A stretch of DNA of 64,000 bases from Eunapius fragilis (lineage: Eukaryota; Porifera; Demospongiae; Spongillida; Spongillidae). Below are positions 5,741-36,002 of the stretch, piece by piece; position 1 is the first letter of the stretch, and every line of letters begins with the position of its first letter. Location of the stretch: assembly GCA_963681505.1 (NCBI GenBank), contig OY811972.1:7890720-7954719 (forward strand), written 5' to 3'. The notes below the pieces were generated by a model. It was not told the DNA's origin, did no database searches, and worked only from the letters and a program-made list of their open reading frames with translations. The position numbers and the translations under genes are program-made.

Positions 5741-5745
5741 CTTAC

Positions 5746-5830
5746 CTGGATCATTCTCATCCACACCTGCTTGTATGGACTTGACAGAGCCAACAAATGC
5801 CTGTACTGGGTTATCTGCCAGTCCTGTGCA
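5746..5830 (-). pseudogene. Roco-type GTPase exon fragment (third paralogue)
   Basis: On the minus strand the frame reads TGLADNPVQAFVGSVKSIQ then AGVDENDP, ending at a gtaagt donor. It matches TGIADNPVHAFVGSVKSIL of the two full GTPase exons (7535-9617 and 20768-22858), in the part just after the P-loop. The upstream P-loop is not recognisable, because the sequence before it runs into a poly-C tract (5883-5906). It lies downstream of the Death-domain exon of copy 1, so it is the remains of another family member, not part of that gene. Confidence 0.6.
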
Positions 5831-6177
5831 AACAAAACTGGTGGCCCTTCCACTTTGGGAGACCTCCCTCCCTCAGGTGATGCCCCCCCCCCCCCCCCCC
5901 CCCCCCTTCCCACATAGTATACCTCGTATCTCATGAAGAAATTACAAATACGTGTACATGATGCAAGTAATGAAAACATTCTCTATGAGAACATGGTGGC
6001 ATATAGGATTGGAAGGAAATAGTGGAGTAAAAAGGAAGTAAAGAAGGGTTTAATAATAAATGTCAGTAGTCCTATTTTTGCACACAAACATAATGGGCAT
6101 TCAAGTAACTAATAACCATTACATTTAATTACATACACATACAGACTAAAACAGTGATTGCAAGGTACTACAGTTAT

Positions 6178-6449
6178 TTAGTTCTCATATGTAAAAATTT
6201 TTCTGAGGACATCCACCAGAGTAGACCAGGTCACAGGCTTTACACCCATGCCCTGAAGCCATCGTTGGAGAATGGCCATGTTGATTCTCTCAGCATTCCA
6301 ATGGTGTTCCATCTCCAATGCTGGCACAATGGCTCCATTTGCATCATTCAGTAGAAATATACCAAAATTTTGATACCTTACACCAACTTCAACAGCTACA
6401 TTGACCTTCCTAGCAGACAAAGATAATAGTTCTGGCATGGTGGGTGTTC
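6178..6449 (-). CDS. Death-domain terminal exon of copy 1
   Basis: An acceptor (ctcctccag) precedes 6449 and the exon ends at a stop at 6178. The frame (MPELLSLSARKVNVAVEVGV, NFGIFLLND, NAERINMAILQRWLQG, PVTWSTLVDVLRKI) has the six-helix Death-domain pattern with the conserved W/L core near the C-terminus. The exon needs a phase-1 donor, which the linker exon 7114-7191 supplies. It differs strongly from the Death exon of copy 2 (18488-18768), so it is not a simple allelic copy. Expected role: homotypic Death-Death interaction in a cytoplasmic signalling complex (inference from the domain). Confidence 0.75.
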
Positions 6450-7113
6450 CTGGAGGAGGGGCAAACCGTCATTACCCTGACTAATCATAACAACAATGCT
6501 TAGGTGTATGTATATACGCACAACATGTTATCCCATACACAACATGTGGCCCTCCATCATAAGTGTCTGCTCAATAATTGCAAGGGGGGGGGGGGCACAC
6601 AAGACAAGGTGATTTGCCCCCATCCAACGCGAAATGTGGAGCCTTTCGGTGCCATGCTCGAAAAACAAGAAAACTTTATAAAGATATAATAGGGTTGTGG
6701 CAGTGATAAAGAACCACCCAACCTAGTAACATTTTCCAGGAAGGAGCATGAAAGTTGATGCGTGCAATTAAAATGTACTTGCAATTAAAAATTCAGGCCA
6801 CTGTAACTCCATGATGGACAGACTAATTTCCAGTGCATAAGAAAAAAGTTGTAGAGGGCATAAGTGTCTCTTAGAATAAGAAATCATTTGAAAACTTAAA
6901 AATATATAATGAAATTAGCTAATGAAATTAATTAGTTGGGATAAGTGGGGTGGGTGGATGGATAGCCCCATGCATCAAGCAAACGCCTATACAACCATGG
7001 TTCCCCATACACAAACTGATTGCCCATACATTAACACGTGGTCCCCCCCCCCCCCCCCTGCCCCCATACACAACATGTATGCCGAACACTTTGGCTATTC
7101 ATACATGACTAAC

Positions 7114-7191
7114 CTTCCAACTGTGGAATTACTTGGACCACTAGCTCTGACAATAGCTGGGAAGAAGAGGAGGCAGCCATGGAAGGCAACA
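7114..7191 (-). CDS. Linker exon between GTPase and Death domain (copy 1)
   Basis: This 78-nt open segment lies between a good acceptor (tctcttgcag) and donor (gttagt). The frame LPSMAASSSSQLLSELVVQ then VIPQLEG is in phase 1 on both sides. It therefore fits between the GTPase exon (phase-1 end) and the Death exon at 6449. No equivalent is visible in the intron of copy 2, where the GTPase exon joins the Death exon directly. Inferred from splice sites and phase. Confidence 0.5.
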
Positions 7192-7534
7192 CTGCAAGAG
7201 AAAGGAAAGGTTACTCTTAATAGCCTCCCTCTAGTAAGGATAACACCATCATTATAGGATTTAGGATCTACAATTGCTTAAGGGATCAGGCATCATGATA
7301 CATGTAATAGTATTGTGTGGAATGTGTTTGCAGTCAAGTGTAGATAATGGGCATATCGTAAAGAAGGGAAACGATTCATATATTCATAAGGAAGTTAACT
7401 GGCTTTGGGGCTATGCAATTTATCCATAGCAGTATTCATTATCAAGATTGCAGAATACTTCCGCATTGCTAAAGAAGGTTTAGTTACACTTTATAAAGAA
7501 AGTGAAAAATCGATAGGATGTACTTTCAACATAT

Positions 7535-9617
7535 CTGATGTTCCTTCCTTTCTAATCCAATCAGTGTGGCCACTGGTTAGAGTCATGTCCCAAGAACAAC
7601 GTGTACAGGATGCTCGGGTTGGGTCTTCATCATAAGGAATAGCTGCACTTTTACAGGACTTAATGGAGCATATAAAACCATCTTTGAGTTCCTTCCCACC
7701 ACTGTATTTGATAATATTGGCACATTCCATAACACCCATATGGATAAGCTTTCTAATTTTAGGGCATACTGTTGTGCGAACCCCATCATTAAGATGTACC
7801 TCTATGTAGGACACTGAATCAATGATGGTGAACCTAGCAGGATACTTCCTGCACTTAAAAGAAACACAATTCCTATAAAGACAGGCTGGGACTTTGTTAT
7901 TTTCAACTAATAAACACTCCTTGTGTTGTAAGAAAGCTACCAAGAAACTGAATAATCCATGTGGTGCAAATTCATAAGGAGAACAGACCAGGAGAGGATC
8001 TGGTCCTTGGTGGGTACTGATCTTGTCAAGATTCAAAGGATCTAAAAGGGCAGGCATCAAGTAGCCACTAACATTTTCTAAGGGAACCATGATAAAGAGA
8101 TGGCACATCAATTCTGTGAAATGCCTAACTGTAAAAACACCATCAATGAAATGTCTTTGAAATTTCTGATGAGAGAGAAATTCATTACGGACTATAGCGT
8201 GATCCCTGAAGTTAACACACCAATCATTTTTTGCGCCTTCACTAGTGAATGATTCTGGCACATTATGACCTGCCAGCTCATGTTTGCACTGCATGGACTA
8301 GGGCTGTGATGATCTTCAGGAAGACCTGAGGATCAGACAACACCACTTCCCTAAGACCTGGTACTTCATGGTACCAAAGGAATAGGTTATACTTGACCAT
8401 ATGGAGGAGAGCTGCCTCCAAGCCTTTCTCGTCCATATCTAACCTTTGAGCCTGCTGTAAACACTTCTTCAGGCTCAAAACACCTTGTGGAGCAGATGCT
8501 CTTATCTGCATCTCCAGAACAAACCACTTTAATGGCAGAAGACGGTGATTGTCCTTACTGCAGTTAGCTACAATTGATCGACGTAATTTATGAGCAACCT
8601 CTTCATCTTCTTTCTCAGGAATTTTACTATTGACCCCCCAAATTGCTTCAACTCCTGTTTTCTGGATAAGAAATTCTGAATTTGCCACACGTTTAATGAT
8701 TTCTTCTTTCTCTATCTTCGTCTCAGAGCATTTTTGTTCCTCATCTCTGTGTGTACCCATAACAAACAGGTAAGGATGGGAACCCCTGGTGTTAGTTGCG
8801 AATGCTCTCATACACTGCTCTAGCACCTGCTTATGGGAGGATGGAGATGTGTATGGTTTGCCTACCGGCTGACTGTTCTGCCCATAGAAATAGATCTCTG
8901 GGCAGTGGTCTAAGCTCTCTGAAAGGTTTACAGCAAAGATAATTGCCGACACATCTTGGATAAAGGCTGGTAGGATATCAAGGAACTGGGGCTGACCACC
9001 ACTGTCAATGAACTGGACCAAGGTCACTTTAAAATGCAATACATTCTTACCTATAGCTTTTTTGAATGCCTCAATAAACCGACTACTAATTACACCAGCA
9101 GCTGGGTTATCATTGAACCTATCCTCCATAGGGAGGTCTGACGATATCTCTTGGTGCTGAATAGATGGAGGTAATACAGGCTCAATAGATGAAGGTGATG
9201 GGACCTTGACATCTACATGTAGCTTTGATAATGGGTCAGCCAACCTTGATGGTTGCTGATGTGCAGCTGGATGAGGAGAAGCCTGAGTTGCTATAGAAAC
9301 TGAAGCTGAAATAGGGGAAGGCTCATTCTGGTAGGCATTTATAAGAACCTGCATTAGCTTGGATTCATCCAAAACCTCCCAGTTGCCAGTATCTTTCTCA
9401 TCCACCCCTGCTAGAATAGACTTGACAGAGCCCACAAATGCATGCACTGGATTATCAGCTATTCCTGTACTAACACGACGTTTATCTGTGTTCTCCGACA
9501 GAAGGAGCCACTTGAGGTGGGTCTTCCCCACACCTGCTATCCCAAGCACCAGACATTTGATAATGGATATATTTACTGAACCTTCCTTCATAGCTTCTTC
9601 AAACAATTGTGTTGCAT
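7535..9617 (-). pseudogene. Roc/COR-like GTPase exon, copy 1 (frameshifted)
   Basis: This is one large exon encoding a Roco-style GTPase: P-loop GIAGVGKT, G3-like DSGGQ, and G4-like THRD in VMGTHRDEE. A COR-like region follows (FAPHGLFSFLVAFLQ), then a Cys-rich C-terminal part. The 5' acceptor is tatag before 9617 and its polypyrimidine tract is a poly-C run. Compared with the intact copy at 20768-22858, copy 1 has a 4-nt insertion near 8290-8294 (tttgcactGCATggac) that ends the frame after ALVHAVQT. The 3' donor is changed from GTATGT to ATATGT (exon end 7535), so the copy is very probably dead. A sequencing error could explain one lesion but not all. Confidence 0.85.
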
Positions 9618-11131
9618 CTATAAATATTGAGGGGGGGGGGGGGGGGGGGGGGTTAAATACATGCAGATTTCAATTTTTGATGAAGTAAAAATTTGGATAT
9701 CAATAAGACCTGGACAACACATATAACACATGTAAAACCAGTTGTCACCTTTCTTTTAATGCCCCACCACCCAACACCTGGTCATTTGCAACAAAAAAGT
9801 AGTGGTGCTACAACATAATTTAGAAAAGCCGCCACCTGAACGATGCATCAGAGGGTCATGATACATGCATGTACCACTTGTTGAGGTGTACACATCAACT
9901 TCTTACACTCCACTCAATGGCAAAAACCCTCCTTTCAACATGCTGTGCTTAGACCATATTAAGAACAGCTAACGATACAGTAACAGGCTGATACCTGTGC
10001 TTGACTTAAACAATGGTACATACACAAACACATAAATTACAGCAGTAAAACAGGTTAGACAAGTCAGTTACATGTTTGGTGCAGTTATAGCTTTGGCCAT
10101 TCATAAATATTTCATTTCACCACAAATGCAAACCTCCTCTACCGTGCGTTTCACTTTATCCTAACATCATTTGGGACACTGTCCAGCAAAATCACCCCTT
10201 GACCAGAGCCTTGGAATGCATTACCGTAGTGCATAATGGGTAGCACCACATTATTAACTAGGGAACAATTTTTAATAACGTTGCCACTCCTTTGGCACAG
10301 CAGTATACTAATATTCTTTGTGTTTATAACTTATCATCGTTTACAGCCTTAAACCACAAGTGTATTTTTATCTCTTAGAAAATGGTTTTGGGGAGCCATT
10401 TTTGTGCTGTAAAGTCTTCACTGTCATTGTTATTGACACAAAAAGGACGAATGGGAGAGTGTCCAGCAAAATCACCCTTCTGGATAGTTTTCCATGTTTT
10501 CATTTTCCGTGAACTCCAAAGAGCTTTTATCAAATGGTCCTTTCGCATCCTAAATTTGACTATCCATCATAAAGTTATTAGGCACTGAATTTATAATTAG
10601 CCATACATGTCAATGCGAGTGTTACTTTTCTTTTGCTTGTCCAGGAAAATATGATAAAGTATCATAAAACTTAAAAGTAGGCTTTCTTTACATGTACATG
10701 CAGTTAACTGTTAAGGGAAAGTATCTCTCCCAATGTCTCATGCTGTCCTGGTGCAGGTCAATATATGGCCCATCATCATGCCATACATCACCATTTGGCT
10801 ATTTTATGAATTATACTTACAATAAATATTACGCTAGACTATTAAATCGAATTTTGATGCCAACATTTCATACACCGCTTAGTTATAGACTTCACACATG
10901 ACTTAATGATCCACCAGCACATTACTTCAAGCTACTACAATGTCTTGATGGTCTGACATATTTAGAGTCAGCTGAGTCATGTATCAATGCAATTGAGATA
11001 TGTGATACTAACAAGCAGTGTTTGCTACATGTACAAATAGCAGGAGTACAGTGTACATGAACATAAAACTAAGTTTGATTGGAATATACATGCATAATGC
11101 TGAAAGACAACAGGTGACATGGTCAACGTAC
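9618..11131 (-). other. Large intron of copy 1 (between NHR exon 3 and GTPase exon)
   Basis: No coding exon is seen. It contains a 20-nt poly-G run at about 9633-9652 (poly-C on the coding strand, just upstream of the GTPase acceptor). It also has pieces of the TCCAGCAAAATCACCC inverted-repeat element (10171-10200 and 10450-10660). The same layout occurs in copy 2 at 22859-24332. Confidence 0.7.
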
Positions 11132-12626
11132 CAGCAAGCAGCTTTCTCTGCTGATCAGGAGCACTTTTATCAGCCATGACATGAAGGGGACTTCCCCCAC
11201 TCCAAAGTGTCAGTGGTCTTAGGGATACCTTCACACACTGACCATACAGGTCCACCAAACCATACACACCCATGGGGACAGTGCAGGGAAGTGTGACCAT
11301 GTGGGCACCATTAATGAAGAGGTGCAAGGTACCAAAATTTGTGTACAGCAGTCCAACTGTGTCCCCAACCTATAGGTCATGGAAATTGATTTCATCAGGC
11401 AGTTGATCCACTTCCTGGTGATATTAATACATATGTAAGTGTTGGCATGAGGTGCATGTATTTATATGAACCAGTTCATTCATTGCAGATGTACTATTGA
11501 TACACATCTAATGCATGTCAAAAAACATTTCTTAAATGCACAGGTACATGAACATGTGGAATAATTGGTGATTAAGTACATAGTATCACTACATGCTTAA
11601 TATAACATGTATTTTGTGCCCTGTAGTAATACAAGGTGTTTCTCGATCCCTTATGAACTTGGCAAGAGGATCACACTCAGAATGCTACCCAATATATTTG
11701 GCACCATCTTTCTATTGCTATCCAGAGGGAGCCTCATATTGACCAGCTAGTGAATAGTTTGCACGTTCTATACATACATACAATAACCAATGAAACGTAT
11801 AATTGTAATACAATGGCGGCATGGACTACTCTATAGCACGCACAACAGATGCACACATGTACATGAACTAAACAGTGTCATACCTGCTCTCCAGCATACA
11901 GAGCTAAGGATGGTTTGTCATTAACTGATGATGTCACAATAAAACTTTGTCCCAACAACTGCTTTACATTGTCCACAGAAACCACCTGTGCTGTACTTTG
12001 TGTAGTGACTCCAATGGACAGAGAGCCACTCCATTTGGAGTCCACCTCCATAATCTCCACCTATTGATGTGTAATCAGTATGCATTGGACAATATCAATT
12101 GTATGAAATATGCACACACTTGCAGTGTTAGCAATTGCCAGAATTGCATGTATGCATCTGTACACATGATGTGCAAGAAAGGCACCAACAGGATAAAATA
12201 AAGCCACACAAAATCAGAAATACTGTACCAACAAATAAGATATTTTCCCCCCACAAACCAAGAATAATAAACATAGATAAGTGCAGATATATTTATACAG
12301 GCATGTGAAATGAACACTGTAATATGTACAGTATAATTCAATGTCATCCCAAGGTCAATTGTATACCCAGGTGTAAAATCTAAAGCAGCCAAGATAACAT
12401 GCACGAAAGTCACAACACTCACAACTGAGGCACCACATGTCAGTGAGGGACAACAGTATGTGGTGACAATGTCTAAACCTGTCATCTCACCTGAAAGATG
12501 ACATCACTAGGAAGAGGAGCAGAAGTAATTACAATGCCTCTTGAGTTGTTATTAAATCTGCAGGCCACTTGTCCTCCATGTTCAAGTCTGATATTGCCAC
12601 CATGTGTGGAGGCAAATGTGACCAAC
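11132..12626 (-). pseudogene. Neuralized homology repeat (NHR) domain exons, copy 1
   Basis: Exons 12626-12491 (136 nt), 12060-11884 (177 nt) and 11414-11132 (283 nt) encode the NHR fold in order. They read LVTFASTHGGNIRLEHGGQ, then VDSKWSGSLSIGVT, then LHLFINGAHMVTLP and VYGLVDLYGQCVKVSL. NHR domains are SPRY-like protein-binding modules of Neuralized-type ubiquitin ligases. In exon 3 the codon AAG of copy 2 (HDLKVGDTVG) is TAG here at 11370-11372, a premature stop. The exon ends in phase 1, matching the GTPase exon. Confidence 0.85.
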
Positions 12627-12970
12627 CTATTGAGAGGGAATATTGGAGGGAAGAGAGAGGGGAGGAGATAGAGTGGAGTGTGAAGGATCATGAATACATT
12701 TGGTGGTACAAATGTTTACTCTTTCTGTTCCACTGGCTGCTTTATCTGTAAACAGACAAATATACATTTCATAATGACATGTAATCCAGACCAAACACAT
12801 AAAAATCATATGCCATGGAAGCATATATCTCCTAATTCAAAAGCAACAACAGTGCTCCTCCCCATACTTGTAGTATCCTTACCTCTTATCAAGATTATCT
12901 GCAGCTCCCACCACTATTAATATTGTTATGAATTAGCAGTGTATTGCAACTACTGTATTTGATTGTCTGT

Positions 12971-13016
12971 GTACATACATGTACATACATGTACATACAT
13001 GTACATGTATTGTGCT
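12971..13016. repeat. Short TACATACATG tandem array
   Basis: Decamer-like repeats of gtacatacat run into catgtacatgtat. It borders the segment that is inverted between the two gene copies and may have helped that inversion (inference). Confidence 0.7.
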
Positions 13017-13119
13017 GCAGGGTGGTTCATTAGTCCTTTTGTGTTGCCATGGTGACCTACATGCATACTGCACTGCCTATTACCTCATCCCCAGACCACA
13101 CATAGCCCAGGCTACTCAC

Positions 13120-13161
13120 CTCTGAAGGCTTCAGGTTATTCTGTTCAGTTAGGCCATCATC
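13120..13161 (-). CDS. Small linker exon DDGLTEQNNLKPSE (copy 1)
   Basis: A 14-codon exon with a good acceptor (cttcag) and donor (gtgagt), in phase 0. A near-identical exon lies at 14479-14520 (DDGQTKQNNLKPSE). The counterpart in copy 2 (about 26315-26337) keeps only its first half because a small inversion cut it. It probably links the ankyrin repeats to the NHR domain. Its phase does not fit NHR exon 1 directly, so another small exon must lie between. Confidence 0.5.
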
Positions 13162-13688
13162 CTGAAGTAGTACATGGGAATATTACATCATTGATGGTAT
13201 AGAACAACACATGCAACATTTGGTGCTCATGAAAACACTACAAATATGGTTTATTTCATACATGTACATGTACATTATGTGTATATGTATGTCTATTGAG
13301 AAACACAAGGATTTAATAGGATGTGATTTTACAATGGAAAAAAAATGTTTCTGACTACTACTCCGTTGGCATGATATTTGAACCTATTTGCGAAAAACCA
13401 TTCACATTACTTAAGAATGCCTAGTCCTAGGCGGGATATGATACACAGCTCAAGTGTATGGATAGTGGATGGATTGGTGAGATTTGCAACCTTCCATGAT
13501 GATCCTGGCATGCATGAGAGGCGCTCACATGTACATGTAACCGGCCAGTGAAATTCAGGCGAAATTTGAACCAGAGCGAAAAAATCACGATATATTCATG
13601 CAAAAATTGATGCTATCCAGATAATTTTAATTGAATCACACACCTACATCCCTAGCACATGAACCCTCATCATTACTAAATTGAGGCA

Positions 13689-14057
13689 TCATTGGAGGAA
13701 CCTCCAGGCTGCACACCACGTTTCGTGTGCTGAGACCGCAACGCCTCCATCCGGCTCGTCTAGGGAGATCGGCATCATCGGCTCGATTGATGCTCGGGAG
13801 GTAGACATCTTGGAACTCACCAAACCCTGCGTAGCCAGTTTTATAACGTAGTAGTTGACATGCTGCCTCTCGACTAGCCAGTGCTGCGCTGCTAATCCGG
13901 GTGACTCAAATCGTCCTTCAAGGTACTCGTAGGCTGCCTTCAAAGCAGCGTATCCAGGAGAATATTTAGGTATCACGTAAGACATGATGGCTCCCCCACC
14001 CCGTGGGCTCCTTCTAGACCCCTCTGCAGCTGCCCCCTCTCCGCCGTTACCCTCCAT
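13689..14057 (-). CDS. GC-rich ORF of unknown function, possible first exon
   Basis: ATG at 14057 opens a 122-codon frame: MEGNGGEGAAAEG, then SYVIPKYSPGYAALKAAYEY, LEGRFESPGLAAQHW and VNYYVIKLATQGLVSSK, with a stop at 13689. GC content is clearly higher than in the flanks. It lies upstream, on the same strand, of the linker and NHR exons of copy 1, so it could be the N-terminal exon of that gene with a donor before the stop. I could not fix a donor whose phase fits. A longer in-frame start at 14159 exists but is AT-rich and 5'UTR-like. I do not recognise the family. Confidence 0.4.
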   Translation of the reverse strand: MEGNGGEGAAAEGSRRSPRGGGAIMSYVIPKYSPGYAALKAAYEYLEGRFESPGLAAQHWLVERQHVNYYVIKLATQGLVSSKMSTSRASIEPMMPISLDEPDGGVAVSAHETWCAAWRFLQ

Positions 14058-14478
14058 GACGCCGCGTTTTTCGGCTAGGAAGACTAATTTAACAATTAAA
14101 TAAGAACTTTTTGGGCGCCAATCCTTTGTTTTATGCGCATGTGTTTCCCATGTGGCCAATTACTTATAGTCTTGGGATCCGTTAATCTATTACCTACATA
14201 CAGAAAAAAGTCCGATGGCCAAATCTCGTTCCTATCCCGAGATATGATCTTGTTTTTTCGGAAGCGGTTCAAATTAACTCCGCGCGGTTCAAATATCATT
14301 ACCACAGAGTACTTTTTAATATCAATATTTTATGGCAAAATACAAACATAAAACTTATACACTGTACTAAAATTCAAGGGCCATAGAAACCAAAGCATGA
14401 GCCTACTATTTGCCTCATTAATACATGTACATGTAACATACATGTACAGCTATTTACCTCAGATCACAGCCTACTCAC

Positions 14479-14520
14479 CTCTGAAGGCTTCAAGTTATTC
14501 TGTTTAGTTTGACCATCATC
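14479..14520 (-). CDS. Second copy of the DDG linker exon
   Basis: This 42-nt exon encodes DDGQTKQNNLKPSE with donor gtgagt and a cag acceptor. It is a near copy of 13120-13161, duplicated together with some flank (catcctgatgggaatatgta). It may be an alternative or orphan exon. Confidence 0.45.
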
Positions 14521-14875
14521 CTGATGGGAATATGTATATCACTGATGGTATACAACAACACATGCAACATTTAATTTTAAAATCATTGAGTTATTGTTAT
14601 TGAATAATTACAACAATAATACATGAAAGGAATAAATGCACATTTATTATTATATACACTAAAGTAAGTCCTTCAACAGTCATGTTAAAGTAGATCATTA
14701 TTATTTTACATGTACATGTACATATAAGCACCAGTATATGAAAATAAACATAGATATCATGGCTTCAGCTCTGCATAACACCAATACAAGCATACACACA
14801 AACAAGGCGAGGCTTCGTGTATACATGTACATGTACATACAATGTACATGCATGTACATGCACACCTTATCTAAC

Positions 14876-14955
14876 CTTGCTCCCATGAATCTTCAGTACA
14901 TCAATTATTTCCTTGTGACCCTTCTTCACTGCTATGTCCAGGGGTGTTGATGCAA
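14876..14955 (-). pseudogene. Ankyrin-repeat exon remnant (copy 1)
   Basis: On the minus strand it reads STPLDIAVKKGHKEIIDVLK then IHGSK, ending at donor gttaga. It is homologous to the copy 2 exon 27077-27157. The acceptor found in copy 2 (cttcag before GATGGG) is replaced by unrelated sequence, so this exon is probably not spliceable. Confidence 0.65.
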
Positions 14956-18118: not shown

Positions 18119-18184
18119 TACATCAGATCTTGCTATATTCACTCCAGCACCAGCTCCCAACAAGGTCTGTACTACATCATGATC
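18119..18184 (-). pseudogene. Truncated ankyrin-repeat exon
   Basis: The minus strand keeps the 3' part of the standard 102-nt ankyrin exon (VVQTLLGAGAGVNIARSD, then gtaagt). At about 18184 homology stops and unrelated sequence follows, so the 5' half and acceptor are missing. Confidence 0.7.
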
Positions 18185-18487: not shown

Positions 18488-18768
18488 CTATGGTACAGGA
18501 GTACACAATGTCTTTGTCTTTAATTGTTCAGCCAGGACCACATGGTCACAGGATGAGAGGGCATCAATCAGCTTCTTCCAGGAGCATGACGTGTCTGATT
18601 CCAACCAGAACTGAATAAGATGGCGTCGGCAATCTGCAACTTGTCCACGATTATTAATATCAATTTCTTCTATCTTTGTAAGACTAATATTTAGTTGGAT
18701 TCCCAGTGACTTCCAATCCACCACATCTTTAAGAGCACTGAGTATATTTTTATGAGTAAAAGTGGAAT
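18488..18768 (-). CDS. Death-domain terminal exon, copy 2
   Basis: Acceptor cttcag precedes 18768 and the stop TAG is at 18488-18490. The exon begins with two bases completing a phase-1 codon, exactly what the GTPase exon (end 20768) leaves. The frame STFTHKNILSALKDVVDWKS, LGIQLNISLTKIEEIDINN, CRRHLIQFWLESD, SWKKLIDALSS has the Death-domain helix pattern with the typical W...LIDAL motif. It forms the C-terminus of the fusion protein. The intron before it holds the large minisatellite. Confidence 0.8.
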
Positions 18769-21700
18769 CTGAAGAGAAGAACATACAGTCATGGACCATG
18801 AATATGACTTCCCTCTTCCCCAATCCAAACGTTGTGCTCAGGATGACAAACAAGTCTTCTCCCCTTCCCATAAACACGATACACAACAAGTGGCCCCCTA
18901 TACCCACAAGTGGCCCCCTATACACAACATGTGGCCCCGGGGCTATACACAACATGCGGCCCCCTATACACAACATGTGGCCCCGGGGCATTACACAACA
19001 TGCGGCCCCCTATACACAACATGTGGCCCCGGGGCATTACACAACATGCGGCCCCCTATACACAACATGTGGCCCCCTATACACAACATGTGGCCCCCTA
19101 TACACAACATGTGGCCCTCTACACACAACATGTGGCCCCCTATACACTACATGTGGCCCCCTATCCACAACAAGTGGCCCCCTATACACAACATGTGGCC
19201 CTCTATACACAACATGCGGCCCCCTATACACTACATGTGGCCCCCTATACCCACATGTGGCCCCCTATACACAACATGTGGCCCCGGGGCTATACACAAC
19301 ATGCGGCCCCCTATACACAACATGTGGCCCCGGGGCATTACACAACAAGTGGCCCCCTATACACAACATGTGGTCCCCTATACACAACATGTGGCCCCCT
19401 ATACACTACATGTGGCCCCCTATACACTACACTGTACATGTGGCCCTCTATACACAACATGTGGCCCCCTATACACTACATGTGGCCCCCTATACACAAC
19501 AAGTGGCCCCCTATACACAACATGTGGCCCTCTATACACAACATGCGGCCCCCTATACACAACATGTGGCCCCTATACACAACATGTGGCCCCCTATACA
19601 CAACATGTGGCCCCTATACACTACATGTGGCCCCCTATACACTACATGTGGCCCCCTATACACTACATGTGGTCCCCTATACACAACAAGTGGCCCTCTA
19701 TACACAACATGTGGCCCCCTATACACAACATGTGGCCCCCTATACACAACAAGTGGCCCTCTATACACAACATGCGGCCCCCTATACACAACATGTGGCC
19801 CCTATACACTACATGTGGCCCCCTATACACAACATGTGGCCCCTATACACAACATGTGGCCCCCTATACACAACATGTGGCCCCCTATACACAACATGTG
19901 GCCCCCTATACACAACATGTGGCCCCCTATACACAACATGTGGCCCCCTATACACAACATGTGGCCCCTCAATACACAACATGTGGCCCCCTATACACAA
20001 CATGTGGCCCCCTATACACAACATGTGGCCCCCTATACACAACATGTGGCCCCCTATACACAACATGTGGCCCCCTATACACAACATGTGGCCCCTTATA
20101 CACAACATGTGGCCCTCTATACACAACATGTGGCCCCCCATACACAACAAGTGGCCCCCTATACACAACATGTGGCCCCCTATACACAACATGTGGCCCC
20201 CTATACACAACATGTGGTCCCCTATACACAACATGTGGTCCCCTATACACAACATGTGGCCCCCTATACACAACATGTGGCCCCCTATACACAACATGTG
20301 GCCCCCTATACACAACATGTGGCCCCCTATACACAACATGTGGCCCCTCAATACACAACATGTGGCCCCCTATACACTACATGTGGCCCCCTATACACAA
20401 CATGTGGCCCCCTATACACTACATGTGGCCCCCTATACACAACATGTGGCCCCCTATACACAACATGTGGCCCCTTATACACAACATGTGGCCCCCTATA
20501 CACAACATGTGGCCCCTTATACACAACATGTGGCCCCCTATACACAACATGTGGTCCCCTATACACAACATGTGGCCCCCTATACACAACATGTGGCCCC
20601 CTATACACAACATGTGGCCCCTACATGAGGCCCCCTATACACAACATGTGGTCCCCTATACACAACATGTGGCCCCCTATACACAACATGTGGTCCCCTA
20701 TACACAACATGTGGTCCCCTACTAGTTTTGTAGCAGGTTACACTTTACAAAGAAAATGAGAACATACCTGGTGTTCCTTCCTTTCCAAGCCAATCGGTGT
20801 GGCCATTGGTTAAAGTCATGTCACAAGAACAACGTGTACAGGATGCTCGGGTTGGGTCTTCATCATAAGGAATAGCTGCACTTTTACAAGAATTACATGT
20901 AATGGAGCATATAAAACCATCTTTTAGTTCCTTCCCACCACTGTATTTGATAATATTGGCACATTCCATAACACCCATATGGATAAGCTTTCTAATTTTA
21001 GGGCATACTGTTGTGCGAACCCCATCATTAAGATGTACCTCTATGTAGGACACTGAATCAATGATGGTGAACCTAGCAGGATACTTCCTGCACTTAAAAG
21101 AAACACAATTCCTATAAAGACAGGCTGGGACTTTGTTATTTTCAACTAATATACACTCCTTGTGTTGTAAGAAAGCTACCAAGAAACTGAATAATCCATG
21201 TGGTGCAAATTCATTAGGAAAACAGACCAGGAGAGGATCTGGTCCTTGGTGGAAACTGATCTTGTCAAGATTCAAAGGATCTAAAAGTGCTGGCATTAAG
21301 TAACCATTAACATTTTCTAAGGGAACCATGATAAAGAGATGGCACATCAATTCTGTGAAATGCCTAACTGTAAAAACACCATCAATGAAATGTTTTTGAA
21401 AATTCTGATGAGAGAGAAATTCATTACGGACGATAGCGTGATCCCTGAAGTTAACACACCAATCATTTTCTGTGCCTTCACTAGTGAATGATTCTGGCAC
21501 ATCACAGCCTGCCAGCTCATGTTTGCACTGGACTAGGGCTGTGATCATCTTCAGGATGACCTGAGGATCAGAGAACACCACCTCCCTAAGACCTGGTACT
21601 TCATGGTACCAAAGGAATAGGTTATACTTGACCATATGGAGGAGAGCTGCCTCCAAGCCTTTCTCATCCATATCTAACCTTTGAGCCTGCTGTAAACACT

Positions 21701-24700
21701 TCTTCAGACTCAAAACACCTTGTGGAGCAGATGCCCTTATCTGCATCTCCAGAACAAACCACTTTAATGGCAGAAGACGGTGATTGCCCTTACTGCACTT
21801 AGCTACAATTGATCGACGTAATTTATGGGCAACCTCTTCATCTACTTTCTCAGGAGTTTTACTATTGACATCCCAAATTGCTTCAACTCCCGTCTTGTGG
21901 ATAAGAAATTCTGAATTTGCCACACGCTTAATGATTTCTTCTTTCTCTATCTTGGTCTCTGAGCACTTTTGTTCCTCATCTCTGTGTGTACCCATAACAA
22001 ACAGGTAAGGATGGGAACCCCTGGTGTTAGTTGCAAATGCTCTCATACACTGCTCTAGCACCTGCTTGTGGGAGGATGGAGATGTGTATGGTTTGCCTAC
22101 TGGCTGACTGTTCTGCCCGTAGAAATAGATCTCTGGGCAGTGGTCTAAGCTCTCTGAAAGGTTTACTGCAAAGAGAATTGCCGACACATCTTGGATAAAG
22201 GCAGGTAAGATATCAAGGAACTGGGGCTGACCACCACTGTCGATGAACTGGACCAAGGTCACTTTAAAATGCAATACATTCTTATCTATAGCTTTTTTGA
22301 ATGCCTCAATAAATCGACTACTAATTACACCAGCAGCTGGGTTATCATTGAACCTATCCTCCATAGGGAGGTCTGAAGATATCTTTTGGTGCTCAATAGA
22401 TGGAGGTAATACAGGCTCAATAGATGAAGGTGATGGGACCTTGACATCTACATGTAGCTTTGATAATGGGTCAGCCAACCTTGATGGTTGCTGATGTGCA
22501 GCTGGACGAGGAGAAGCCTGAGTTGCTATGGAAACTGATGCTGAAATAGGGGAAGGCTCATTCTGGTAGGCATTTATAAGAACCTGCATTAGCTTGGATT
22601 CATCCAAAACCTCCCAGTTACCAGTATCTTTCTCGTCCACCCCTGCTAGAATAGACTTGACAGAGCCCACAAATGCATGCACTGGATTATCAGCTATTCC
22701 TGTACTAACACGACCGGTGTGTTTATCTGTGTTCTCTGACAGAAGGAGCCACTTGAGGTGTGTCTTCCCCACACCTGCTATCCCAAGCACCAGGCATTTG
22801 ATAATCGATATATTTACTGAACCTTCCTTCATAGCTTCTTCATACAATTTTGTTGCATCTATAAAAATGGGGAAGTTAAGTACATGCAGATTTCAAAATG
22901 ACACCCAACATTCTTGATGAAGTAAAAATATGGATATCAATAAGACCTGGGCAACACATATACCACATGTAAAACCAGTTGTCTCCTTTCTATTAATGCC
23001 CCACCGCCCAACACATGATCATTTGTTGTAGTAATGCAACAAAAAAGTAGTGGTGCTACGACATAATTTAGAAAAGCCTCCACCTGAAAGATGCATCAGT
23101 GGGTTGTGATGATACATGTATATGTACCACTTGTTGAGGGGTGCACATCGACTTCTTACACTCTGCTCAATGGCACAAACCCTCCCTTCAACATGCTGTG
23201 CTTAGACCATATTAAGAACAGCTAACGATACAATAACTGAAACAATGGTACATACACAAACACATAAATTATAGCAGTAAAACAGGTTAGACAAGTTAGT
23301 TACATGTTTGGTGCAGTTAGCTTTGGCCATTCATAAATATTACATATCACCACAAATGCAAAACTCCTCTCCTAACTACCGTGCGTTTCACTTTATCCTA
23401 ACATCATTTGGGACACTGTCCAGCAAAATCACCCCTTGACCAGAGCCTTGGACTGCATTACCATAGTAATGAAGAGGTATAATGGATAGCGATAACTAGG
23501 GAACAATTTTTAAAAATGTTGCCACTCCTTTGGCACTGCAGTATCTTACAGCCCTTAAACCACTGTAAGTGTATTTTTATCTCTTAGAAAATGGTTTTGG
23601 GTAACCATTTTTGTACAAAGTGTTCAATGTTATTATTATTGACACAAAAAGGGCAAATGGGACAGAGTCCAGCAAAATCACTCTTCTGGATAGTTTACGT
23701 TATCAAATTTTTTCATTTTCCGTGAAGTCTAAAGAGCATTTATCAAATGGTCCTTACGCATCCTAAATTTGACTATCCATCATAAAGTTATTAGGCACTG
23801 AATTTATAATTAGCCATACATTTCAATGCGAGCGTTACTTTTCTTTTGCTTGTCCAGGAAAATTTGATATAAAGTATCATAAAACTGAGAAGTACATACA
23901 GGTTTCTTTACATGTACATGCATGCAGTTAACTGTTAATTAATAGTATCTCTCCTAATGTCTCATGCTGTCCTGGAGCAGGTCAATATATGGCCCATCAT
24001 CATGTTATACACAATAGAACATTCAGACTCTTAAGTCGAATTTTGATGCCAACAATTCATACACCGCTTAGTTATTGACTAGATCCACCAGCACATTACT
24101 TCATGCTACTGCAATGTCTTAAGCACATTCTCATCATTAATCCTGATGGTCTGACATATTTAGAGTCAGCTGAGTCACTTCTCAATGCAATTAGGATATG
24201 CAAAACCAACAAGAAGTGTTTGCTACATGTACATGTACATGTACAAGTAACAGGACTACAGTGTACATATACATAAAACTAAGCTCCAATGCAATACACA
24301 GGTCTAAACAACAAATGACATGGACAGCTTACCAGCAAGCTGCTTTCTCTGCTGATCAAGAGCACTTTTATCAGCCATGACATGAAGGGGACTTCCCCCA
24401 CTCCAAGGTGTCAGTGGTTTTAGGGATACCTTCACACACTGACCATACAGGTCCACCAAACCATACACACCCGTGGGGACAGTGCAGGGAAGTGTGACCA
24501 TGTGGGCACCATTAATGAAGAGGTGCAAGGTACCAGAGTTTGTGTACAGCAGTCCAACTGTGTCCCCAACCTTTAGGTCATGGAAATTGATTTCATCAGG
24601 CAGTTGATCCACTTCCTGGCGATATTAATACATATGTAAGTGTTGGCATGAGGTGCATGTATTTATATGAACCAGTTCATTTGTACAATTGATATACATC

Positions 24701-27700
24701 TAATACATGTCAAAAAACATTATTTAAATGTACAGGTACATGCCCATGTGGAATAATTGGTGATCAAGTACATAGTATCACTAAATGTTTAATTTAACAT
24801 GTATTTTGTGCCCTGTAGCAACACAAGGTGTTTCTTGATCCCTCCCTCTCCCTTAAGAACTTGGCAAGAGGAACACACTCAGAATGCTACTCAATATATT
24901 TGGCAGCATCTTTCTATTGCTATCCAGAGGGAGCCTCATATTGACCAGCTAGTGAATAGTTTGATTCACATACATGTACATGTACATACATACAATAACC
25001 AATGAGACGTACAATTTTCTGTTTAATACAATGGCGGTACATATGGACCACTCTATAGCACGCACAACAGATGTACACATGTACATGAACTAAACAGTGT
25101 CATACCTGCCCTCCAGCATACAGAGCTAAGGATGATTTGCCATTAACTGATGATGTCACAATAAAACTTTGTCCCAACAACTGCTTTACATTGTCCACAG
25201 AAACCACCTGTGCTGTACTTTGTGTAGTGACTCCAATGGACAGAGAGCCACTCCATTTGGAGTCCACCTCCATAATCTCCACCTATTGATGTGTAATCAG
25301 TATGCATTGTATAATATCAATTGTATGAAATATGCACACACTTGCAGTGTTAGCAATTGCCAGAATTGCATGTACTGTATCTGTATACATGATGTACTAG
25401 AAAGGCACCAACAGGATAATATAAAGCCACACAAAATCAGATATACTGTACCAACAAATAAGATATTTCCCCCCCACAAATCAAGAATAGAAAAAATAGA
25501 CGAGTGCAGATATATTTATACAGGCATGTGAAATGAACACTGTAATATGTACAGTATAATTCAATGTCATCCCAAGGTCAATTGTATACCCGGGTGTATA
25601 ATCTAAAACAGCCAAGATAACATGCACGACAGTCACAACACTCACAACTGAGGCACCACATGTCAGTGAGGAACAACAGTATGTGGTGACAATGTCTAAA
25701 CCTGTCATCTCACCTGAAAGATGACATCACTAGGAAGAGGAGCAGAAGTAATCACAATGCCTCTTGAGTTGTTATTAAATCTGCAGGCCACTTGTCCTCC
25801 ATGTTCAAGTCTGATATTGTCACCATGTGTGGAGGCAAATGTGACCAACCTATTGAGAGGGAAGAGAGAGGGGAGGAGATAGAGTGGAGTGTGAAGGATC
25901 ATGAATACATTTGGTGGTACAAATGTTTACTCTTTGTGTTCCACTGGCTGCTTTATCTGTAAACAGACAAATATACATTTCATAAAGACATGTACTCCAG
26001 ACCAAACACACAAAAATCATATGCCATGGCAGCATACATCTCCTAATTCAAAATCAATAACAGTGCTCCTACCATACTTGTAGTATCCTGACCTCTTATC
26101 AAGATTACCTGTAGCTCCCACCACTATTAATATTGTTATGAATTAGCAGTGTGTTGCAACTACTTGACTGTCTGTGTACTTACTGTGTCTGTGTAGTGTG
26201 CATGGGTTGTGTGTGGTCTGGGAATGAGTTAGTAGTCATTGCAGTATGCATGTAGGTCACCAAGACAATACAAAAGGTCTAATGGACCACCCTGCAGCAC
26301 AATACATGTACATGTTGTTCAGTTAGGCCATCATCCTGAAGTAGTACATGGGAATATGTACATCATTGATGGTATACAACAACACATGCAACATTTGGTG
26401 CTCATGGAAACACTACATGTATACCATCAGATGTCTTTATTTTATCTTCAGTGCCTATTGACAAAACTTGGATTAATAGCACATGATTTCAAAATGGATT
26501 CTATTTTCTTATGTCTCTGCGTTTAATCATAGCCAAATACATAATTAAAAATATAAATTATACAGTGTTACGTACATATCATACAAATAACACGTATACA
26601 CTAAAATTCAAGGGCTATGGCAGACAAATCATGGGCCTGCAAAGTCTGAGCATTTTGCCTCATAAACTTAACCAACAAATGGCAATTTACAGCTCATGTA
26701 ATGAAGTTAATGAAGGTTGATGGTTGTCTGCAGCAGACAACTAGTACTTTTCAGACTTCTTATTGAAATCAGTTATGTTAGACGTACATTACATGGAGGT
26801 CACAAGTGAGTCACACAAGCAAGTAATTACATGTAAACAAGGGTTATGCAAAAGCACCTCACAGTACAATGTGGTCAACAGTGATACAGTTATAGATGAT
26901 ACATGTTGGTCTGGCAAAATGTACATAGCAAATTATCTAACATATTTAAGGAACTATGACAGTATAATAAGGTTGATATTGCAGGGATTATTTAGCTTGA
27001 CACACCTGAGTACCAAACATCACACCAGCACACACATTAGGTGTCTATGTACATGTACATGCACACCTAACCTAACCTTGCTCATGTTAAGCTTCAGTAG
27101 TTCAATTATTTCCTTGTGACCCTTCTTCACAGCTATGTCCAGGGGTGTGCTCCCATCCTGAAGACCATACATGTACATGTACATGAGTGATATACATGTA
27201 CTTATGCATGCTATCATGAGTGAATGAATATCAAAACACCTGCTAATACTGACATGCAATAAACTAAAAATATGTCTTTGACTACATGTACATGTACATG
27301 TCCATGTTACAGTCCTCCTGAGTATAACCATTTAAATTTGAATACATGTACATTGTGGCAAATAAAATATTAATACCACATCTCTTGTGGAATAAAAATC
27401 TATTCAAGCCCATGCAGTGTACATGATGTAACCATAAAAATATACCTATAACTAGGTCCAACAATGAATGTGTCACTAAGATTACATAATTCTACAATAC
27501 AGGAAGTGTGTAAAATAATTCAGAGGTAACAACAAGAGTACTATACTACATCAATATACATGTACATGTATCCTGCAACAAGTCCTCACCACACCACATC
27601 CCTCCATACACTCATTAGTTCACACCCCGTCACCCCGTCACATCTAAACATAACTTACCATACTGTAGATGACCATGGCCATTAATTTCCCCAAAACGTT

Positions 27701-27881
27701 TCATTCTATTCTACATCATGTTAAAAGTACCAGTACATGCTGACCACTACATTGTAAATGGAGCAGATGATTTCATACTAACCTTATTAGCCTGATTGAT
27801 ATCAGCTCCTGCTTCAATGAGTTTGTTTACTACTTCAAAGTGTCCATTGAAACTTGCTGTCCACAATGGACTCCGACCATT
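18488..27881 (-). CDS. ANK-NHR-Roco-Death protein gene, copy 2 (intact core)
   Basis: Exons on the minus strand: ankyrin 27881-27783 and 27157-27077; NHR 25849-25714, 25282-25106 and 24615-24333; GTPase 22858-20768; Death 18768-18488. The joins NHR2-NHR3 (phase 0), NHR3-GTPase (phase 1) and GTPase-Death (phase 1) all keep the frame, and no stop interrupts them. Further ankyrin exons in the same orientation lie upstream to 51.5 kb and may belong to this gene or to sister genes. The linker exon between ANK and NHR is broken by a small inversion, so the exact ANK-NHR join is unresolved. Architecture suggests an intracellular sensor or adaptor: ankyrin and NHR bind partners, the GTPase switches, Death recruits effectors (inference). 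Confidence 0.75.
18879..20720. repeat. 21-bp minisatellite, about 88 units
   Basis: The unit is ccccctatacacaacatgtgg, with variants (acatgcgg, cacaacaagtgg, ctctatac, cggggctatac). 21 bp is seven codons, so each plus-strand frame reads a fixed heptapeptide (PPIHNMW, PLYTTCG or APYTQHV). Units that lost a base shift between these frames. No unit carries a stop in any plus frame, which explains the long spurious ORFs. The array fills most of the last intron (18769-20767) of gene copy 2. Single units occur in the matching intron of copy 1 at about 6533-6553 and 7062-7080. Confidence 0.95.
20768..22858 (-). CDS. Roc/COR-like GTPase exon, copy 2 (intact)
   Basis: A 2,091-nt exon, open throughout (697 codons), between acceptor tttatag and donor gtatgt. 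From the reading-frame start: P-loop GIAGVGKT at residues 22-29, a conserved TGIADNPVHAFVGSVKSIL segment, and a low-complexity Ser/Pro/Ala insert (about 98-155). G3-like DSGGQ lies at 203-207 and G4-like THRD near 287-290. A winged-helix/COR-like region follows (AALLHMVKYNLFLWYHEVPG; FAPHGLFSFLVAFLQ), then a Cys pair motif (CNSCKS...CTRCSC). The large insert between P-loop and DSGGQ is unlike small Ras proteins. COR regions dimerise Roco proteins. The NHR exon joins upstream and the Death exon downstream in frame. Confidence 0.85.
20774..26165. repeat. Segmental duplication, copy 2
   Basis: Partner of 7541-12957. Differences are mostly single substitutions and small indels. The major ones are the minisatellite expansion just outside the left edge and an inverted 115-bp segment just outside the right edge (26200-26314). 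Confidence 0.9.
24333..25849 (-). CDS. Neuralized homology repeat (NHR) domain exons, copy 2
   Basis: Exons 25849-25714, 25282-25106 and 24615-24333 match copy 1 in length (136, 177, 283 nt) and splice sites. The domain reads LVTFASTHGDNIRLEHGGQ, VDSKWSGSLSIGVT, INFHDLKVGDTVGLLY, LHLFINGAHMVTLP and VYGLVDLYGQCVKVSL. All three exons are open; the codon that is TAG in copy 1 is AAG here. The NHR fold is a beta-sandwich that binds peptides or lipids in Neuralized proteins. No RING domain is seen here, so ligase activity is not implied. Confidence 0.88.
26200..26314. repeat. Inverted 115-bp segment relative to copy 1
   Basis: The reverse complement of this segment matches 12999-13112 (GTGACCTACATGCATACTGC, CAGACCACACA and CTGCAGGGTGGT in the same order). 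In copy 2 it is flipped and abuts the linker exon (ttcagttaggccatcatcc), removing that exon's 3' half and donor. Confidence 0.85.
27077..27157 (-). CDS. Ankyrin-repeat exon (copy 2)
   Basis: This 81-nt exon encodes DGSTPLDIAVKKGHKEIIEL then LKLNMSK. Acceptor cttcag, donor gttagg, phase 0. It covers the TPL...GH..I...LL core of one ankyrin repeat and ends with a non-canonical tail, as expected of the last repeat before a linker. Confidence 0.75.
27783..27881 (-). CDS. Ankyrin-repeat exon, 33 residues
   Basis: A 99-nt exon in phase 0, NGRSPLWTASFNGHFEVVNK then LIEAGADINQANK, a canonical ankyrin repeat. Acceptor attag and donor gttagt. It is the next exon upstream of 27157-27077 on the minus strand. 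Confidence 0.82.
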
Positions 27882-30296: not shown

Positions 30297-30398
30297 ATTA
30301 GATGCTGCTATATTCACTCCAGCACCAGCTCCCAACAAGGTCTGTACTACATCATGATGACCCTCCTGACTTGCCATAAACAGTGGAGTTGTATTGTT
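30297..30398 (-). CDS. Ankyrin-repeat exon (102 nt)
   Basis: NNTTPLFMASQEGHHDVVQT then LLGAGAGVNIAASN, with acceptor atcag and donor gtaggt. It has 34 codons, phase 0, and is a member of the amplified ankyrin exon family. The donor differs from the gtaagt of its relatives but is usable. Confidence 0.78.
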
Positions 30399-31809: not shown

Positions 31810-32440
31810 GCATTGTAGGTGTCCTAACGTGCACACCATGTGCTGTTCATTTTAACTGTTATGAGATTGTTCCTTAGCTCTGGAAGAGCACTTTTATGTG
31901 TGAGCAGGATACATGTAGCAAGGTTTTTTATTACTATGTACTGATAAGGTATTACAAAGGATGAGTGGTGTATCTACACCCCACACCATCTATCTGCTTT
32001 GGTACCACCACCTCTTCAGTTCCCTCCACTGATTATTTGAACACACTCCTCATATATTGCTTATCTAACCAACAGCACAAGTATCAATTCTCTTCATATT
32101 TTATAAATCTACAGGTAAAGTACAGAGTGTGGATGGAGAACATGTGTACAAGCTGCTCTTGTTCTAAACATACATGTAGTTTAAAAGCTTTATTCCTACA
32201 CATCAAGGGTTGTGATAACCTGTGCTTGGTTGGTACACTTTTATCAATCACCTGCCCCTTAACTGAGATAAATTTGGGGCTCTTTACATTAAGGTATGCC
32301 ATAAAACTTTCTATGGGCAGATGATGTGAATTCCAATTGGGTGATGGCTGACCAGCATCCATCAAAGGGTGGTAGAGACAGCATGTACAGCTTTGGGTGG
32401 ATGTGCTATGGCTATGTGCCCCAGAGTAATAATTTAGTTC
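31810..32440. repeat. Amplified block segment, copy A
   Basis: It begins gtcctaacgtgcacacc and runs to the next ankyrin exon. It is almost identical to 34385-34990 and shares its first part with 51868-52145. On the minus strand it holds a frame (ending near 32084) with FMAYLNVKSPKFISVKG and ACVLEQEQLVH-like content that stays open in copy B as well. Whether it is coding is uncertain. Confidence 0.8.
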
Positions 32441-34384: not shown

Positions 34385-34990
34385 GGACATTGTAGGTGTC
34401 CTAACGTGCACACCATGTGCTGTTCATTTTAACTGTTATGAGATTGTTCCTTAGCTCTGGAAGAGCACTTTTATGTGTGAGCAGGATACATGTAGCAAGG
34501 TTTTTTATTACTATGTACTGATAAGGTATTACAAAGGATGAGTGGTGTATCTACACCCCACACCATCTATCTGCTTTGATGCCACCACCTCTTCAGTTCC
34601 CTCCACTGATTATTTGAACACACTCCTCATATATTGCTTATCTAACCAACAGCACAAGTATCAATTCTCTTCATATTTTATAAATCTACAGGTGAAGTAC
34701 AGAGTGTGGATGGAGAACATGTGTACAAGCTGCTCTTGTTCTAAACATACATGTAGTTTAAAAGCTTTATTCCTACACATCAAGGGTTGTGATAACCTGT
34801 GCTTGGTTGGTACACTTTTATCAATCACCAGCCCCTTAACTGAGATAAATTTGGGGCTCTTTACATTGAGGTATGCCATAAAACTTTCTATGGGCAGATG
34901 CTGTGAATTCCAATTGGATGATTGCCGAACAGCGTCCATCAAAGGGTGGTAGAGACAGCATGTACAGTTTTGGGTGAATGTGCTATGTGC
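34385..34990. repeat. Amplified block segment, copy B
   Basis: Near-identical partner of 31810-32440. Just after it (about 35010) DIRS-like sequence begins. Confidence 0.85.
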
Positions 34991-35501
34991 CCCAGAGTGG
35001 ATCGTTGATTTAAAATGGGAAGGGTATGTGATACCATTCTACTTCAAACCTACGGCGTATACAAGGACAAATCAGCAGTCGACGTGGGTGAACACATGAT
35101 TTGTGGACCTTGCTGTTGCTTAGCTGCTCAGTGGGGGTTACGTCCAGACAGTAAGTGCTAGACCACATATTTGCAGCCCACTGTCAGAAAAAGTGCTTGG
35201 TGCTTAACCTGCATCATGTGAACCAGTTAGTATGGAAACAGAAATTTAAGTATGAAGACTTGCGTATTGCCATGATGCTTTTCAGATCAGGTGAGAATAT
35301 GATTTAAAGTCGGGTTACCACCATGTGGAGGGGTGGAGGTGCATTGTAAGTACTTGGGTTTTGATGGACCATGTGTTCTCTAAACTTATGCGATCCTTGG
35401 TTAAGCTATGGCGATCTAAGGGGTTAAAAGCAGTGATGTAGCTGGACAATGGCATATGTGCAGTTAAGGGTAAGATAGAGGCCAAAAAGGCCAGTGCATG
35501 G

Positions 35502-36002
35502 GTGAGGGATGCTTTTGAATGTGCGGGTTTGGTTGTGCATGAGGGTAAGTCAGTTTGGTTCCCGTCACTTAGCACAGCGTGGTTGGGATTCAATGCAGAC
35601 CTGGAACGGGGCTGTGTTTCGGTTCCAGAAGCTAAGTTGGCAGTGTTGCGTGCCATGTTGCAGATCACTGGGGTAGCCACACATCTGAATGCACGGTTTA
35701 TAACTAGTTTGGTTGGCAAGATTATTTCCAAGGGGTTGGCTTTGAGGCCAATGTCTAGGATTATGACTAGGAGTTTGTATGTCTTGCTGTGGTCCAGACA
35801 TGCATGGTGTGAGCACTTAGAGATCAACCGAGGTGTGCAGCGGGAGTTAGAGTTTTGGAAATCATCTAGTTGTGTGGCCCAATATAATGCCCAGCCTATA
35901 TGGCTTAGCCCTCCAGCCGCTAGGTTGGTGTATTCGTATGTGAGTGATACTGGCTATTGGGGGTATTCAGTGGAGCACGGCCTGCATGTTGCACTGCACT
36001 AA
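35502..36002 (+). pseudogene. RT/RNase H region ORF of the DIRS-like element
   Basis: This 166-codon open frame is the best preserved part of the element (VVHEGKSVWFPSLSTAWLGF; RSLYVLLWSRHAWCEHLEI; ELEFWKSSS; SDTGYWGYSV). The frame upstream carries stops. It matches the region following the RT thumb in DIRS-group elements. Confidence 0.65.

Follow-up and report, generated by a model that had tools for sequence, protein, structure and literature searches.

A window of 64,000 nucleotides from the sponge Eunapius fragilis (contig OY811972.1, positions 7,890,720 to 7,954,719 of the forward strand) was analysed. Its minus strand carries a gene that appears to encode an NHR domain, a Roco-like GTPase and a Death domain in one chain. 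We refer to this gene, at 18488-25849 with a possible ankyrin 5′ part, as unit 1, and to its neighbour at 6196-14953 as unit 2 (Table 1). A first-pass annotation, made from the letters of the window alone, had proposed, from splice phases, that the Death exon of unit 1 shares a single frame with its NHR exons and a GTPase exon of 697 codons. This was borne out: joined at canonical AG...GT borders, the three NHR exons, the GTPase exon and the Death exon gave one stop-free frame of 988 residues, and the exon borders were found again in paralogues.

Table 1. Features of the two gene units and their surroundings (positions counted from the first nucleotide of the window).
Feature	Position	Strand	Basis and remarks
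Unit 1, NHR exon 1 (NHR1)	25714-25849	-	Exon joining and Neuralized match
Unit 1, NHR exon 2 (NHR2)	25106-25282	-	Exon joining and Neuralized match
Unit 1, NHR exon 3 (NHR3)	24333-24615	-	Ends in phase 1; own open frame matches Neuralized at 1.7e-9
Unit 1, GTPase exon, type A, 697 codons	20768-22858	-	Starts two bases in, ends in phase 1; GIAGVGKT P-loop, DSGGQ, THRD, COR-like region
Unit 1, terminal Death exon (DD-1) with stop codon	18488-18768	-	Pfam, PDB profile search, hhalign
21-bp satellite, 87 copies, in the GTPase-to-Death intron	18879-20721	-	Tandem Repeats Finder
Ankyrin exon, 27 codons	27077-27157	-	Pfam Ank 2.8e-5; phase 0 at first donor
Ankyrin exon, 33 codons	27783-27881	-	Pfam Ank 8.3e-9
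Eight more ankyrin exons or pieces, possible 5′ part of the gene	30306-51459	-	Six-frame profile scan; starts at 30306, 32479, 32854, 39147, 40168, 45311, 48968, 51367
Unit 2, ankyrin exon	14876-14953	-	tblastn, 77%
Unit 2, NHR exons	11133-12625	-	NHR3 11414-11133 (in-frame stop), NHR2 12060-11884, NHR1 12625-12491
Unit 2, GTPase exon, type A, broken (two frames, a stop)	7539-9615	-	
Unit 2, terminal exon DD-2	6196-6447	-	tblastn, 90% to DD-2 of locus L033

Searched against its own genome, the GTPase exon gave at least 65 matches, which were merged by hand into at least 59 places. These family counts are lower bounds, since 64 of 232 candidates were scored in this search and 150 of 176 in the corresponding search with the second terminal exon described below. 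Most copies lie on a chromosome-sized contig, designated C2. Twelve copies on C2 share at least 89% identity with the GTPase exon of the window gene (type A), and 28 share 57-64% (type B). The remaining places comprise six at 1.3-2.1 Mb on C2, one on contig C20, one on contig C18 and 11 distant ones (36-43%). An NHR exon was found upstream on the same strand within 12 kb at 42 of the 59 places, or at 41 when copy 9556942, which borrows the NHR exon of a neighbour, is left out (89 of 92 NHR matches were used, and 47 of 75 DD-1 matches). The C18 copy and the 11 distant places had no NHR exon by this rule. Between 7.7 and 9.95 Mb, 31 of the 34 type A and B copies with a terminal exon are on the minus strand. 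The exon order of unit 1, which the annotation suggested should be counted in sponge genomes, is shared by many paralogues within this one.

Because a splice phase fits by chance at about one junction in three, the paralogues were examined as a further test. Inspection of the flanks by eye showed that the GTPase exon keeps its phase-1 acceptor and donor in type B loci, in which the exon is about 60% identical; these borders were readable in both types. The exceptions were L018 and L019, in which the match ends early, and L022, in which the donor is changed. In L018 (C2:16624348-16629267) the type A GTPase match stops at residue 639, and the open frame continues into satellite-like sequence. 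The GTPase-to-Death intron of the window gene is 1999 bases long and contains the satellite. In the 21 type B copies followed by DD-1, the distance from the GTPase match to DD-1 was 142-193 bases in 16, and 69, 80, 80, 220 and 2412 bases in the others, so that it was 69-220 bases in all but one of the 21.

The identity of the domains was examined with profiles. The joined NHR exons matched Neuralized at 1.2e-32 (113.3 bits) over profile positions 1-147 of 149, which makes a complete NHR domain. DD-1 matched Pfam Death with 25.1 bits, above the cut-off of 22.6; a nine-member DD-1 profile retrieved the FADD death domain from the PDB at 1.1e-4, and hhalign of DD-1 against 20 Death domains of the same genome gave 98.4% (reversed decoy, 6.8%). 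In the GTPase exon, a long and poorly conserved insert separates the P-loop from DSGGQ. Across 38 loci, the longest open frame contained the P-loop in 35, DxxGQ in 37 and a T/N-H/K-x-D type motif in 36, and the Ras-like GTPase motifs sit in invariant columns of alignment A1. When a 20-member GTPase profile was aligned by hhalign to six Roc-COR proteins of the same genome, it scored 94.2% over 306 columns; six decoys, one of them reversed and five shuffled, reached 0.2% at most. Two of the six reference proteins were scanned, and both carried LRR, Roc, COR-A and COR-B above cut-off. The designation Roco-like given in the annotation is upheld by this comparison. In Pfam searches of the exons, NHR was recovered, Death scored above cut-off, and Roc and COR-A stayed below it; four relatives were likewise under the Roc and COR-A cut-offs. 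From the splice phases, the common order in many paralogues and the profile comparisons, the prediction that NHR, Roco-like GTPase and Death exons constitute one gene is well supported.

The family uses two different terminal exons. The idea that copies without DD-1 lack a terminal domain was rejected, since a second exon, DD-2, was present in the same phase in nine of ten type A and B loci examined; in L017, DD-2 lies 2.0 kb away, beyond the flank used for this inspection. Within 6-7 kb of the 40 type A and B copies on C2 we counted four A/DD-1, seven A/DD-2, 21 B/DD-1 and six B/DD-2 pairings, and two copies with neither (26 of 75 DD-1 and 32 of 150 DD-2 matches were used; a recount of the A, B and 1.3-2.1 Mb copies used 49 DD-1 and 34 DD-2 matches from C2). 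No A or B copy had two near-complete terminal exons within this distance. A DD-2 profile of 23 copies gave 89% against 20 Death domains of the same genome, with decoys at most 1.6%, and 67% against DD-1 (42% with smaller alignments). Pfam returned no match over cut-off for DD-2 (Death appeared in two of nine members, at best 0.013), and a PDB search with the DD-2 profile returned nothing. DD-2 is therefore called Death-like here, which is less than a proven Death domain.

Additional stretches of terminal exons were also found. Three B/DD-2 copies out of six are followed by incomplete DD-1 sequence: 27 residues at a distance of 5.8 kb in one, 42 residues at 6.9 kb in another and 59 residues at 7.8 kb in the third. 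One B/DD-1 copy has an extra 27-residue DD-1 fragment at 3.1 kb, and the A/DD-1 copy 9381182 is followed, after 11.1 kb, by a DD-2 exon. In addition, a short DD-1 segment (approximately residues 59-84) is repeated at roughly a dozen places on C2, mostly away from any recognised GTPase exon, for example at 8591838, 9363011, 8078492, 9292838 and 8202154.

Among the six copies at 1.3-2.1 Mb, DD-2 was present within 7 kb in one, and neither terminal exon in the other five. Three of these five have a DD-2-like match at 7.8-11.5 kb, and two of the five, L020 and L021, show a 26-30% match to DD-1 close by. DD-2 was found within 7 kb at ten of the remaining 13 places, which are those on C20 and C18 and the 11 distant ones, and DD-1 at none; the pairing of the GTPase with DD-2 therefore looks like the older one. 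In L061 and L062, a COR-like half (26% and 31% identity) and DD-2 occupy one uninterrupted frame, of 940 and 607 codons, respectively. Pfam detected COR-B and Death in the L062 frame below cut-off only, and neither in that of L061.

Synonymous divergence (dS) from the window gene was then compared exon by exon. In NHR3 it was 0-0.03 in nine type B copies and 0.06 in one type A copy, as compared with 0.35-0.41 in two of the 1.3-2.1 Mb copies. The GTPase exon gave 1.06-1.08 in four type B copies and 0.06-0.09 in eight type A copies, and DD-1 gave 0.06-0.10 in seven type B copies. Three type B copies were 92-100% identical to the window gene across NHR3 and about 140 bases of the next intron, after which the intron was unrelated; their GTPase exon was 97-98% identical only around the P-loop and 40-86% elsewhere. 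Such breaks of similarity in the intron flanking NHR3, together with a diverged GTPase exon, are what replacement of the GTPase exon through introns would leave. The P-loop region itself (22755-22815), with its 97-98% DNA identity between types A and B, may be a conversion patch or a site of strong constraint.

A tree of 20 rows separated type A from type B and joined it to the C20 copy and those at 1.3-2.1 Mb (support 97/98). Holding A and B together in a 15-row tree was not quite rejected (approximately unbiased test, p-AU 0.052), and this test was chosen after the tree had been seen. A nine-row tree of NHR3 split A and B together from two copies of the 1.3-2.1 Mb region (100/100, with a bootstrap that had not settled). 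The contrast in dS between NHR3 and the GTPase exon does not depend on whether A and B are sister groups. With one NHR type, two GTPase types and two Death-like exons, the family appears to have evolved as entire exons were exchanged or replaced by way of the introns.

The distribution of the satellite follows the pairings. An exact two-unit pattern, a search that leaves diverged units aside, occurred 75 times in the genome, always on C2. Of the nine places that it occupied, four were A/DD-1 copies and four B/DD-2 copies, and the ninth lay beside a DD-2 exon with no recognised GTPase. We also counted units with up to four mismatches in 25 of the 40 type A and B copies, using downstream flanks of 1500 bases (767 in one copy) and excluding L018, which has no terminal exon. 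At least 12 units were present in all four A/DD-1 and all four B/DD-2 copies, that is, in the minority pairing of each type, as compared with 0-2 units in the seven A/DD-2 copies and none in the ten B/DD-1 copies; the 25 copies share ancestry, and these are not independent events. On one reading, A/DD-2 and B/DD-1 are the older pairings, and the satellite marks, or caused, the exchange.

Unit 2 is a decayed neighbour of unit 1 and carries the other terminal exon, DD-2. Beyond this exon, at 5678-5857, lies a fragment resembling GTPase residues 42-103 (56% identity). A partial ankyrin exon at 18131-18181, between the Death exon of unit 1 and the ankyrin exon of unit 2, probably belongs to the 5′ region of unit 2. 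On the plus strand, 31965-32324 and 34542-34952 encode near-identical peptides, as a direct repeat about 2.6 kb apart. An open frame of 186 codons at 35442-36002, also on the plus strand, resembles part of a retroelement reverse transcriptase/RNase H.

On the basis of these results, we propose, with a probability of about 0.62, that unit 1 is one gene of a family located mostly on C2, that its product, an intracellular NHR-Roc/COR-Death protein that probably has ankyrin repeats ahead of the NHR domain, functions in immune or cell-death signalling, and that the family evolved by exon exchange. Expression, ligand, switch cycle and downstream partner are predicted parts of this proposal. On the model of DAPK, Roco and NLR-type proteins, a ligand would bind to the NHR part (and the ankyrin part), the Roc-COR part may then alter shape or dimer state as it binds or hydrolyses GTP, and the Death domain could in turn recruit a death-fold partner, leading to immune or cell-death signalling. 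The ratio of nonsynonymous to synonymous divergence (dN/dS) of the GTPase exon was 0.25-0.43 in every one of the 14 loci, out of 38 others, that were compared with the window gene, and 0.18-0.53 in six within-type pairs. Values so far below 1 indicate that this exon has mattered.

Several observations weigh against the proposal. The Roc-COR profile match starts at DSGGQ and runs into the COR region, so that the P-loop half falls outside it. In Pfam, the GTPase exon of the window gene scored 17.7 for COR-A (cut-off 35.3) and 13.7 for Roc (cut-off 27). A PDB search with this exon as a single sequence found nothing at E up to 1, and the best hits of the 20-member profile in the PDB were insignificant (Nicalin, 0.081; LRRK2, 0.16). 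Constraint is not evident in the other exons, which are short and have few changes: dN/dS ranged from about 0.2 to above 1 in DD-1, with dN equal to or above dS in L026 and L030, and from about 0.3 to above 1 in the DD-2 pairs compared, and in NHR3 dN exceeded dS in several pairs with very few changes. Some copies are broken, unit 2 among them, and several carry stops. As to the ankyrin part, the annotation had placed such exons upstream in the same orientation, and there they are, but their link to NHR1 is tentative: the last ankyrin exon is in phase 0 at its first donor and NHR1 requires phase 2. A join would require a second donor five bases on, or another unseen exon. Moreover, in two diverged C2 copies the stretches of 3.8 and 4.7 kb before NHR1 had no match to the two ankyrin exons of the window. 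Ankyrin repeats in front of the NHR-GTPase-Death protein are nevertheless plausible, as a candidate 5′ part of the gene.

Other explanations of the locus were considered. NHR domains occur in Neuralized-type E3 proteins, and ankyrin and Death domains are found in scaffolds as well. The gene could accordingly be real and yet encode a DAPK/Roco-type scaffold for cytoskeletal or ubiquitin-pathway signalling, in an array that arose by neutral expansion and ordinary gene conversion. Simple homogenisation fits the near-identical NHR exons, and NHR3, DD-1 and DD-2 are without clear constraint. The low dN/dS of the GTPase exon argues in the other direction, as does the observation, in the accessible part of PMC8195603, that lineage expansions of death-fold proteins with varied architectures are typical of conflict and immune systems; we regard the scaffold as improbable, while giving it real weight. 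It is quite unlikely that the array consists mostly of decaying copies and that the window gene is perhaps non-functional despite its open frame. The stops and frame break of unit 2, the stops in several other copies and the 1.8-kb satellite that fills one intron would agree with decay, but by our own count the GTPase match is stop-free over at least 660 residues in 32 of the 48 copies with at least 53% identity, and the eight type A copies compared with the window gene fall within the dN/dS range of 0.25-0.43. That the NHR-GTPase and Death parts are separate adjacent genes is hardly credible. The long satellite-bearing intron of the window gene would allow it, but not the short gaps of nearly all type B/DD-1 copies, in which the phase-1 border is kept, nor the uninterrupted COR-like and DD-2 frames of L061 and L062.

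The mosaic itself may have arisen by insertion or displacement: DD-2 would have landed, together with the satellite, in type B copies between the GTPase exon and a DD-1 that was there before, and in type A copies the other way round. An insertion of DD-2 in front of DD-1 would also fit the partial DD-1 exons found behind half of the B/DD-2 copies, and the distant DD-2 exon of copy 9381182 speaks for this account as well. However, DD-1 pieces occur elsewhere on C2 away from GTPase exons and may be unrelated debris, and the difference between GTPase exons within a near-identical NHR context is left unexplained; we hold this account to be possible, with the odds leaning against it. A further extension of the exchange model is speculative and rather unlikely: the array would work as a combinatorial set of receptors. 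A minisatellite found in introns of this family alone would promote, or at least mark, the swapping of terminal Death exons between copies, and perhaps of GTPase exons too, so that a near-constant NHR input is rewired to different outputs.

The annotation knew of no described protein with the order it proposed. The exact order ankyrin-NHR-Roc-COR-Death, or an exchange of GTPase and Death exons, was not found in searches of an open-access library, a scope that excludes most subscription papers, but two groups of proteins come close. In DAPK1, of the ROCO family, a kinase is followed by ankyrin repeats, ROC-COR and a death domain (PMC4917528, available portion). DAPK1 shares the order ankyrin, ROC-COR, Death with the window gene, in which the ankyrin join is only a candidate; it differs in that the window family has an NHR domain before the GTPase and many copies. 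A simple pattern scan found no kinase-loop pattern in any frame of the window, and the 5′ end of the window gene is not established. In molluscs, a figure of Aplysia TIR and COR proteins carries the labels NHR, ROC, COR, Death and TIR (PMC9334734), although the domain order of each protein is not readable from the legend. In a centipede and an oyster, a neuralized domain replaces kinase and SH3 in a Roc/COR-Death-TIR-like combination (PMC5094078). As far as the available parts of these two papers go, the molluscan and arthropod proteins share NHR, ROC/COR and Death with the window gene but carry TIR, and exon exchange is not mentioned for them.

Less similar systems share single aspects with the family. 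Trichoplax ROCO genes combine ROC-COR with CARD and death domains but have no NHR, and the term neuralized is absent from the accessible text of PMC4104024. Brown-algal ROCO genes form an expanded family with exon shuffling, as on C2, but according to the available portion of PMC11378527 it is the LRR sensor repeats that are shuffled there, whereas in the C2 family NHR is near-constant and the GTPase and Death exons differ. The NLR/AP-GTPase conflict systems outlined in the accessible part of PMC8195603 likewise place a sensor, an NTP switch and a death-fold adaptor in one chain, the switch of the window gene being Roc-COR-like and not NACHT. In the accessible text of a paper on sponge NLR proteins (PMC12909245), the terms GTPase, ankyrin and neuralized do not occur.

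Beyond the first reading of the window sequence, the present analysis adds the array, a second Death-like exon and the mosaic pattern of the copies. Receptor families are usually thought to diversify their sensing end. In the C2 family the binding domain is almost unchanged, and it is the switch and the signalling exon that differ between otherwise near-identical copies. If the system is indeed combinatorial, it would be the reverse of NLR or LRR-ROCO families, whose sensor varies, and a sponge might use such an array in allorecognition or immunity. Provided that the copies are expressed, they would form a natural two-by-two set of chimeras in which the coupling between a Roco switch and its Death-domain output can be studied, and they would exemplify modular output-domain evolution in an animal genome.

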